Shown one piece after another: positions 21,509-23,899 of a stretch of DNA of 64,000 bases (the stretch's first letter is position 1; each line of letters opens with the position of its first letter). Below the pieces are notes generated by a model, which was given only the letters and a program-made list of their open reading frames with translations, made no database searches and was not told where the DNA came from. Source of the stretch: Gluconacetobacter tumulisoli (GTDB lineage Bacteria > Pseudomonadota > Alphaproteobacteria > Acetobacterales > Acetobacteraceae); NCBI RefSeq assembly GCF_014174155.1, contig NZ_JABEQM010000002.1, positions 248,001-312,000 of the forward strand. Direction: 5' to 3'. A program made the translations under genes and the position numbers.

Positions 21509-23005
21509 ATGACCACGCTGATCCTCGACCGCCCCCTGACATCGGACCAGATCCACCGGATCGCCTGCCACGGCGCGACCCTGGCGCTGTCCGACGCCGC
21601 CCTGGCCCGCATCGACGCCGCCCACGCGGCCCTGCGCACGCTGGTGGACGGCGACAGGCCGGTCTACGGGCTGAACACCGGCGTGGGCGCCCTGTCGGAC
21701 ACGCGGATCTCCGCGGCGGAGCAGACCGCCCTGTCGCGCAAGATCCTGTTCAGCCATGCGGTCGGCGTCGGCACGCCCCTGGACGAGGCCACGACCCGCG
21801 CGATCGTCGCCTGCGCCATCAACGGCTACTGCCACGGCCGGTCCGGGATCCGGGCGGATATCGTGCTGCTGCTGGTCCGCCTGCTGAATGCGAACTGCCT
21901 GCCGGTCATCCCCCGCGACGGCTCGGTCGGCTATCTCAGCCACATGGCCCATGTCGCCCTGCCGCTGATCGGCCACGGCGCGCTGCGCCTGGACGGCGAG
22001 ACCCTGCCGGCGCGCGAGGCCCTGCGGCGGCTGGACCTGGCCCCCGTGACGCTGGGCGCGAAAGAAGGGCTCTGCCTGGTCAACGGCCTGCCGTGCGCCA
22101 CGGGCATCGGCGCGCTGGTGACGACCCGCCTGCGGGACCTGATGGACTGGGCCGACTGCATCGCCGCCGTCACCTTCGACGTGCTGGGCGGGCAGGTGCG
22201 CGCCTTCGACCCGCGCTCGGCCCGGCTGCGCGCCTTTCCCGGCAGCATCGCGGTGGCGGACCGGCTGACCGCGCTCCTGGCCGGGTCGCCGTCGCTGGCC
22301 CGGTCGGCCGGCGCCCGCACCCAGGACGCGCTGAGCCTGCGCGCCATCCCGCAGGTCCACGGCGCGGCGCGCGACGCGCTGGCGGGCCTGCGCGGCGCCA
22401 TCGACCTGGAACTGCAGAGCCTGTCGGACAATCCGGCCATCGTCGCCGACGGCCCGGCGATCGAGGTGTTTTCCGAAGCCCACGCCGTCGGCGCCGCCCT
22501 GGCCCAGGCGATGGACCAGTCGGCGATCGTCACCGCCACCCTCGGCGGCATCGCCGAACGGCGGCTGGACCGCATGGTCAACCCCCTGGTCAGCCCCTGG
22601 CCGCCCTTCCTGGCGACCGATCCCGGCACCGGCAGCGGCTTCATGATCGCCCAGTACACCGCGGCATCGCTGGTGGCGCAGAACCGGCGGCTGGCGGCCC
22701 CGGCCAGCCTGGACGGCGGCATCACCTCGGCCCTGCAGGAAGACATCCTGGTCCACGCCACGCCCGCGGCGCTCAAGGCCGCGACAATCGTGGACAACAC
22801 GCGCACCATCCTGGCGATCGAGCTGCTGGCCGCCTGCCAGTGCATCGACCTCGCCGGCGGCCCCGCCGGCTTCGCGCCCCGCACGGCGGACCTCTTCCAC
22901 ACCGTCCGCGCCCTCGTCCCCCGCTATGACGAGGACCACCCCCTGGCCGACGACATCACCGGCCTCGCGACCCTGCTGTCCATCACCCCGCCGCCCGCCC
23001 TCTAG
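21509..23005 (+). CDS. Histidine ammonia-lyase homologue lacking the MIO triad
   Basis: A 498-residue protein that aligns along its whole length with histidine ammonia-lyase: YGLNTGVG (Tyr53), KEGLCLVNGLPCATG, SLRAIPQVHGAARDAL, LQSLSDNPAIV, SGFMIAQYTAASLVAQNR, ALQEDILVHATPAALKAATIVDNTR and LAIELLAACQ. But the loop that builds the cofactor reads GSVG-YLSHMAH (residues 138-148) where HutH has GSVG-ASG-DLAPLAH. The Ala-Ser-Gly triad is absent, a clean three-residue loss with the frame kept. The electrophilic MIO group cannot form, so classical ammonia elimination from histidine is unlikely. No hutU, hutI or hutG genes are near. The gene is intact and GC-rich in third positions, so it is probably functional in another role. 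Confidence 0.85.
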   Translation: MTTLILDRPLTSDQIHRIACHGATLALSDAALARIDAAHAALRTLVDGDRPVYGLNTGVGALSDTRISAAEQTALSRKILFSHAVGVGTPLDEATTRAIVACAINGYCHGRSGIRADIVLLLVRLLNANCLPVIPRDGSVGYLSHMAHVALPLIGHGALRLDGETLPAREALRRLDLAPVTLGAKEGLCLVNGLPCATGIGALVTTRLRDLMDWADCIAAVTFDVLGGQVRAFDPRSARLRAFPGSIAVADRLTALLAGSPSLARSAGARTQDALSLRAIPQVHGAARDALAGLRGAIDLELQSLSDNPAIVADGPAIEVFSEAHAVGAALAQAMDQSAIVTATLGGIAERRLDRMVNPLVSPWPPFLATDPGTGSGFMIAQYTAASLVAQNRRLAAPASLDGGITSALQEDILVHATPAALKAATIVDNTRTILAIELLAACQCIDLAGGPAGFAPRTADLFHTVRALVPRYDEDHPLADDITGLATLLSITPPPAL

Positions 23006-23020: not shown

Positions 23021-23899
23021 TCAGCACATCTCGGCCAGGTACTCCATGAACGCCTGCGCCCGGCGCGAGAGATGCTGGCCGGAGGCATGGACGGCATAGA
23101 TGTTGATATCCTCCTGCTTGAAGGCGTCCAGCGCGGTCTCCAGCCGGCCGGCCCGCAGGTCGGCCGCGATATCGTAGTCCGTCTTCAGAACGACCCCGGC
23201 GCCCGAGATCGCCCAGTGCCGCAGCAGCCCGCCGTCATTGGTCATCCTGTCGCCCGACACATGCACCGGCAGAGACGCCTCGCCGTCCCGGAAGCGCCAG
23301 ATGCTCTGCGGATCGCCTTTCCGCGCCAGCACCAGGCAGTTATGGCCCGACAGCTCCTCGGGACGGCACGGCTTGCCATGTCGCGCCCAGTAGGCCGGCG
23401 CGGCGCAGACCGAACGCCCGCCGCGCAGGATAAGGCGCGCCTTCAGCCGGGAATCCGAAAGCGGGCCGGTCCGCAGGCCGAGGTCGTAGCCCCCATGTAT
23501 CAGATCGACCACGTCGTCGCTCAACGACAGGTCGAAACGCACCGCCGGATGGCGGGCCAGGAAACCGTCGATCAGACCGCACAGCCGGGTACGCCCGAAA
23601 TCGTTGAGCGACGTGACGCGGATGGTGCCTTTCAGGGGACCGTCCCCCGCGGCCTGGTCGACGGCCTCGTCCAGGGCAAGGAGGACGCCGCGGCACTGGC
23701 GCGCGAACCGCTCGCCCTCCGGGGTCAGCGCCAGCTTGCGGGTCGACCGCAGGACCAGCCGGGCGCCCACATGATCCTCCAGCCGCCGCAGGCTGGCCGT
23801 CACGGCGGACGGCGCAAGCCGCCGCGCACGCGCCACGGCGGCCAGGCTGCCCTGCTCGGCGATGTCGATGAAGACGCGGATATGCGCGAGAAGGTCCAT
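23021..23899 (-). CDS. LysR-family transcriptional regulator
   Basis: A 292-residue LysR protein. The winged helix covers residues 1-60 (LLAHIRVFIDIAEQGSLAAVARARRLAPSAVTASLRRLEDHVGARLVLR); the periplasmic-binding-like effector domain follows (IRVTSLNDFGRTRLCGLIDGFLARHPAVRFDLSLSDDVVDLI). It resembles the CrgA/DsdC-like group with LxxRTGPLxDSRL. It is divergent from the PRISE-type reductase gene and separated from it by about 190 bases, the usual layout of a regulator and its target. It ends only 15 bases from the lyase homologue's end, with no terminator visible. Confidence 0.92.
   Translation of the reverse strand: MDLLAHIRVFIDIAEQGSLAAVARARRLAPSAVTASLRRLEDHVGARLVLRSTRKLALTPEGERFARQCRGVLLALDEAVDQAAGDGPLKGTIRVTSLNDFGRTRLCGLIDGFLARHPAVRFDLSLSDDVVDLIHGGYDLGLRTGPLSDSRLKARLILRGGRSVCAAPAYWARHGKPCRPEELSGHNCLVLARKGDPQSIWRFRDGEASLPVHVSGDRMTNDGGLLRHWAISGAGVVLKTDYDIAADLRAGRLETALDAFKQEDINIYAVHASGQHLSRRAQAFMEYLAEMC

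Follow-up and report, generated by a model that had tools for sequence, protein, structure and literature searches.

Which reaction can a histidine ammonia-lyase (HutH) homologue catalyse once the residues that form its MIO cofactor are gone? This question is raised by a gene of Gluconacetobacter tumulisoli located in a stretch of 64,000 nucleotides, here called the window. The reading considered best, held with somewhat better than even confidence, is a MIO-free lyase with HutH fold that supplies the hut pathway with urocanate. On this reading, its substrate is most likely hercynine (N,N,N-trimethylhistidine), from which trimethylamine would be removed by 1,2-elimination.

The gene and its shortened loop

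The open reading frame begins with ATG, ends with TAG and comprises 498 translated codons (Table 1). Its codon-position G+C of 0.73/0.53/0.96 is as expected of a real gene, and an overlapping antisense frame shows the mirror image of this pattern. End-to-end homology with HutH, as claimed by the original prediction, was borne out by a match to Pfam Lyase_aromatic (PF00221, aromatic amino acid lyase superfamily) over the full length with 484.8 bits (cut-off 27.3). The NCBIfam HutH equivalog (TIGR01225) gave 455.4 bits, which is below its cut-off of 539.15. A structure prediction, proposed earlier as a check, yielded a HutH fold with a pLDDT of 88.7 and low-confidence segments at residues 369-375 and 405-410. 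Its best solved structural match was HutH from P. putida (1eb4, TM-score 0.91; further entry 1b8f), while ergothionase from T. denticola (6s7j) was found at rank 20 with 0.90.

GSVGYL is encoded at 21920-21937, with 21931 as the last position of GSVG, exactly where the loop break had been placed. It had also been claimed that precisely the MIO-forming Ala-Ser-Gly triad of HutH was lost. The triad is absent, and the MIO serine and two more loop residues are missing whichever alignment is chosen, but whether the lost residues are the exact triad depends on the alignment: MAFFT places Tyr142 opposite Ala142 and a gap at Ser-Gly-Asp. A sequencing error or frameshift was considered and rejected, since the codon-position pattern is clean and all of the best 80 of at least 583 relatives carry the same loop.

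The window copy of the gene is isolated. It adjoins a LysR-type gene, which is possibly its regulator, and no hut genes lie nearby in the window. Two palindromes representing what we take to be the HutC operator consensus gave 0 matches and 3 matches at chance level in the window, none of which adjoins the lyase gene; this result carries little weight.

Table 1. Coordinates of the lyase gene, its neighbour and its active-site positions in the window (HutH residues in P. putida numbering).
Feature	Position	Strand	Remark
MIO-free HutH-like lyase, 498 aa	21509..23005	+	PF00221 484.8 bits, full length
Tyr53, kept (HutH Y53)	21665..21667	+	35/35 clade rows
His83, kept (HutH H83)	21755..21757	+	35/35 clade rows
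Shortened loop GSVGYLSHMAH, replaces GSVGASGDLAPLAH	21920..21952	+	three residues missing after 21931
Tyr142, in place of MIO triad	21932..21934	+	35/35 clade rows
Asn192, kept (HutH N195)	22082..22084	+	Ser in 6/6 ergothionase-type rows
Leu275, replaces HutH Tyr280	22331..22333	+	35/35; Leu in T. denticola ergothionase too
Arg278, kept (HutH R283)	22340..22342	+	35/35 clade rows
Ala326, replaces HutH Phe329	22484..22486	+	35/35 clade rows
Met379, kept (HutH M382)	22643..22645	+	Gly in 6/6 ergothionase-type rows
Tyr383	22655..22657	+	Val in 18/18 HutH rows, Lys in 6/6 ergothionase-type rows
Glu411, kept (HutH E414)	22739..22741	+	35/35 clade rows
LysR-type regulator gene, convergent with lyase	23021..23899	-	

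A clade with a changed amine side

A scan of genome contigs gave at least 583 relatives, of which the best 80 were kept and examined for the loop. GS[VA]GYL was present in all 80 and likewise in five of five annotated plasmid loci examined; the clade gene was labelled histidine ammonia-lyase in each of the five annotated loci examined. The genes occur in Alpha-, Beta- and Gammaproteobacteria. Alignment A1 contained 39 sequences (the window protein and 38 of the 80 loci). Of the 86 clade members (the window protein, 80 loci and five plasmid loci), 35 were chosen to cover the spread and entered in a tree of 79 rows together with 18 of 34 canonical HutH rows; L127 (long branch), L138 (second copy of L008) and L143 (no reading frame survived filtering) were excluded, and T. 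denticola ergothionase was aligned but kept outside the tree. All 35 clade members formed one clade with a support of 100/100. This clade and all 25 MIO-bearing rows made up one group (100/100), separate from the ergothionase-like rows and further MIO-lacking types. Constraining all MIO-bearing rows together cost 0.17 log-likelihood (p-AU 0.504), a difference that does not separate a single MIO loss from several. The suspicion that a conserved clade shares the loop thus proved right, and its genes are probably misannotated as histidine ammonia-lyase.

When 60 genomes related to that of the window were searched, its own genome and the congener G044 alone gave matches of more than 600 bits, with 303 bits as the next best value. 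A TGA flagged inside the G044 match is the stop codon of the gene. Further MIO-lacking loop types were seen, namely GAAD/GAGD (L119-L122), GEAD (L123-L128), GEGD (L129-L133) and GCAD (L134-L137).

Active-site positions were compared in 35 clade rows, 18 canonical HutH rows and six ergothionase-type rows in P. putida numbering. Tyr53, His83, Asn195, Gln277, Arg283, Met382 and Glu414 were invariant in all 35 clade rows; the retention of Tyr53, Asn192, Arg278 and Glu411 (window protein numbering) had been noted before and was found again in the alignment. The same 35 rows have Tyr for Ala142, lack Ser143-Gly144, and carry Leu for Tyr280 and Ala for Phe329. The latter two replacements had been overlooked before, and both residues are kept in 18 of 18 canonical HutH rows. 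Leu at position 280 is shared with all six cytosolic ergothionase-type rows, T. denticola ergothionase included, and with all eight rows of the GAxD and GCAD types. MIO loss and Leu280 are not strictly tied, since six rows of the type of L003, a divergent family member described below, have no MIO and yet Glu at this position.

In HutH, active-site residues are assigned to the imidazole, the carboxylate or the amine side of the substrate. On that view, the clade appears to keep the imidazole and carboxylate residues, whereas its changes (MIO, Tyr280, Phe329) would sit on the amine side.

Gene neighbourhoods and the product

The absence of hut genes, noted in the original prediction, is true of the window but does not extend to most relatives. 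When hutC, hutU, hutI, hutF and hutG were counted within the stretches around the best 80 of at least 583 loci, at least one was present near the lyase gene in 68 loci and in 11 of 13 named genera. Burkholderia and Paraburkholderia account for 54 of these 80 loci; 53 of the 54 have a hut gene, mostly hutC alone. More than hutC (U, I, F or G) was found in just 14 of the 80. Complete sets of U, I, F, G and C surround the lyase gene in Gluconobacter (L005, L006), Komagataeibacter (L007), Acetobacter okinawensis (L008), Kaistia (L070), Aureimonas (L088) and G044, where the gene lies inside the hut operon. Among the matches listed, the closest relatives (approx. 60% identity) include L005 to L008 as well as L004, around which hutC, hutG and hutU were seen. 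Two Caballeronia loci (L080, L083) lack hutC but carry the other four genes, U, I, F and G. No hut gene was present in the stretches of 12 of the 80 loci. These comprise all five gammaproteobacterial MAGs, both Pseudomonas loci and the Agrobacterium locus, along with two of the three Acetobacter, one of the three Rhizobium and one of the 35 Paraburkholderia loci. The absent hut genes had been taken to suggest a new genomic context; the relatives point to histidine/urocanate catabolism instead.

In some Rhizobiaceae (L010, L078, L085), no hut gene was seen; the surroundings of the lyase gene there include a desaturase-like gene and a gene for a phosphonate-type binding protein. The gammaproteobacterial MAGs L067, L069 and L075, without nearby hut genes, have a small gene of approx. 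130 aa (starting MDKIFIHALKTEAI) directly upstream of the lyase gene.

The window's own genome does contain a hut operon with hutI, hutF, hutG, hutC and hutU (L159) on contig C3, without a lyase in the 16 kb examined. Its canonical HutH (L001, loop GSVGASGDLAPLAH) is encoded on contig C5, where 19.9 kb contained no further hut gene. The third family member of this genome is L003 (G000:C6:233969-235459, loop GTLGEGDLAVLA); its best relative among solved structures is ergothionase. L003 has a longer N-terminus resembling a signal peptide, and no hutU-like gene was found near it.

A hydratase was found at 13 clade loci. Five of these were tested, and all five hydratases clustered with the clade lyase were urocanate hydratases. 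Next to other MIO-lacking lyases (one with GEAD, four with GCAD loop), five of five hydratases passed the cut-off for thiourocanate hydratase. This parallel is the strongest evidence for urocanate as the product of the clade. All 43 clade genomes searched (G044 and 42 locus genomes out of 80; one match is a partial gene) also gave a hutU match over the cut-off, compared to 27 of the 58 lyase-free relatives, and some of the 27 were weaker with approx. 700 bits, the score of thiourocanate-type hydratases. As hutU is common in Burkholderiales regardless, this complete set of matches is weak evidence beyond the family to which the window belongs. Altogether, the support from gene context is good, and the product is very probably urocanate.

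Substrate, mechanism and alternatives

An enzyme without MIO is expected to use a substrate with a good leaving group. Chemistry and analogy moderately favour hercynine as this substrate, and the clade lyase would most likely be the hercynine counterpart of ergothionase, with which it probably shares its chemistry. PMC13405746 describes ergothionase as a trimethylamine lyase without MIO. Imidazole and carboxylate of hercynine would bind as in HutH. An enzyme base, perhaps Tyr53, would take the beta-proton, the carbanion would be stabilised by the protonated imidazole, and the quaternary amine could depart without a covalent electrophile. Room for the three methyl groups would be created by the loss of MIO, Tyr280 and Phe329, and Tyr142 and Tyr383 may give aromatic contact to the cation.

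A substrate-binding protein and an ABC ATPase are encoded near the lyase in 62 of the best 80 of at least 583 loci. In Sinorhizobium, the clade gene is downstream of a glycine-betaine-type ABC transporter. The S. meliloti gene behind these transporter genes (L086) has the clade loop and belongs to the same clade, although it is annotated as histidine ammonia-lyase; we take it to be HutH2 of the hutXWVH2 operon, a putative histidase. According to a 2000 paper in J. Bacteriol., hutH2 mutants of S. meliloti reportedly grow modestly slower on histidine. HutH1 of P. fluorescens SBW25, by comparison, may be an ordinary MIO enzyme. The HutH-like imidazole and carboxylate sites, the changed amine side, the urocanate product and the betaine-type transporter of Sinorhizobium all fit hercynine. 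The binding protein adjoining the lyase in Burkholderia counts against it, as it is nearest to octopine/nopaline-binding proteins and not to betaine-binding ones, and so do five genomes in which no canonical HutH was found and the reported growth defect of the hutH2 mutants. The 12 loci without a hut gene, the mere 14 of 80 with more than hutC, the isolated window copy and Glu280 of the L003 type also speak against the favoured explanation as a whole, and no trimethylamine-using gene was noticed beside the lyase gene.

According to sources among PMC13405746, PMC9732360, PMC8871633, PMC7653990 and PMC3826126, hercynine is produced by fungi, cyanobacteria and actinobacteria. In the literature searched, which leaves most subscription journals outside its coverage, no report of a hercynine lyase and no paper combining hercynine, trimethylamine and urocanate was found.

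An unlikely but serious alternative is that the clade proteins are true histidine ammonia-lyases that use another mechanism, independent of MIO, to eliminate ammonia from L-histidine. This is brought into play by G002-G005 and G044, which have a complete hut set and in which canonical HutH was not found; genome completeness is given for G044 alone (99%). When the own canonical HutH served as query, each of the five gave its clade member as best match, at 37% identity. No ASG loop was found in G002-G005, and further MIO-lacking members of the family occur in three of these (G002, G003, G005). In G044, searches with the window protein and with the own canonical HutH gave no second match. On the other hand, co-occurrence with HutH was determined in 42 of the 80 locus genomes, and 36 of the 42 had a full-length HutH-type match (at least 604 bits to PF00221), so that the clade lyase usually adds to HutH; an ASG loop of some kind was present in 38 of 42. 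Canonical HutH is even encoded in the same stretch as the clade lyase at L070 and L081, in Kaistia (L070) in one cluster. Moreover, Tyr280 is lost as well, and HutH with a mutated MIO loses nearly all activity on histidine. The claim of different chemistry made at the outset gains support, since the amine-side residues were altered jointly and the gene is usually present in addition to canonical HutH, not as its substitute. It is unlikely that the clade is a genuine histidine ammonia-lyase without MIO or any other electrophile that has taken over from HutH in certain acetic acid bacteria. If it were, the rule that ammonia elimination from histidine needs MIO would be broken.

A decayed canonical HutH in A. 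okinawensis was considered as well and rejected, as the fragments have a GSVGYL loop and represent a more distant MIO-lacking gene. This second gene of the GSVGYL type (L138:10746-12066) is in pieces, is 36-40% identical to the window protein and has GGNGHG where SEAHAVG is expected.

Rather unlikely is a MIO-free lyase that forms urocanate from another N-substituted histidine, such as dimethylhistidine or an opine like histopine. The opine-like binding protein of Burkholderia and the changed amine side would suit such a substrate. However, secondary and tertiary amines leave less well than trimethylamine, and the Sinorhizobium transporter is of the betaine type.

Very improbable is another ergothionase converting ergothioneine to thiourocanate and trimethylamine, in spite of two features that it shares with the clade besides the fold, namely the missing MIO and Leu at the Tyr280 position. 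The ergothionase-type rows form a separate clade, and their loop is one residue short compared to three residues in the clade lyases. They have Ser at 195, Gly at 382, Lys at 386 and Phe at 329, where the clade has Asn and Met of HutH type, Tyr and Ala. Furthermore, the clade lyase clusters with urocanate and not thiourocanate hydratase, and the family was rejected as ergothionase on the tree, the hydratase type and the active-site residues. Equally improbable is a non-catalytic binding or regulatory protein, an earlier suggestion based on the lost cofactor triad that is disfavoured by the invariant catalytic residues in 35 diverse rows and by the catabolic gene neighbourhood in relatives.

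The clade genes labelled as histidine ammonia-lyase cannot form the defining cofactor of that enzyme. If hercynine is indeed the substrate, the clade would provide a missing route from hercynine to glutamate, and trimethylamine would have a further bacterial origin. The clade would also be a second example of a HutH fold that functions in the absence of MIO, and canonical enzymes are close at hand for comparison.
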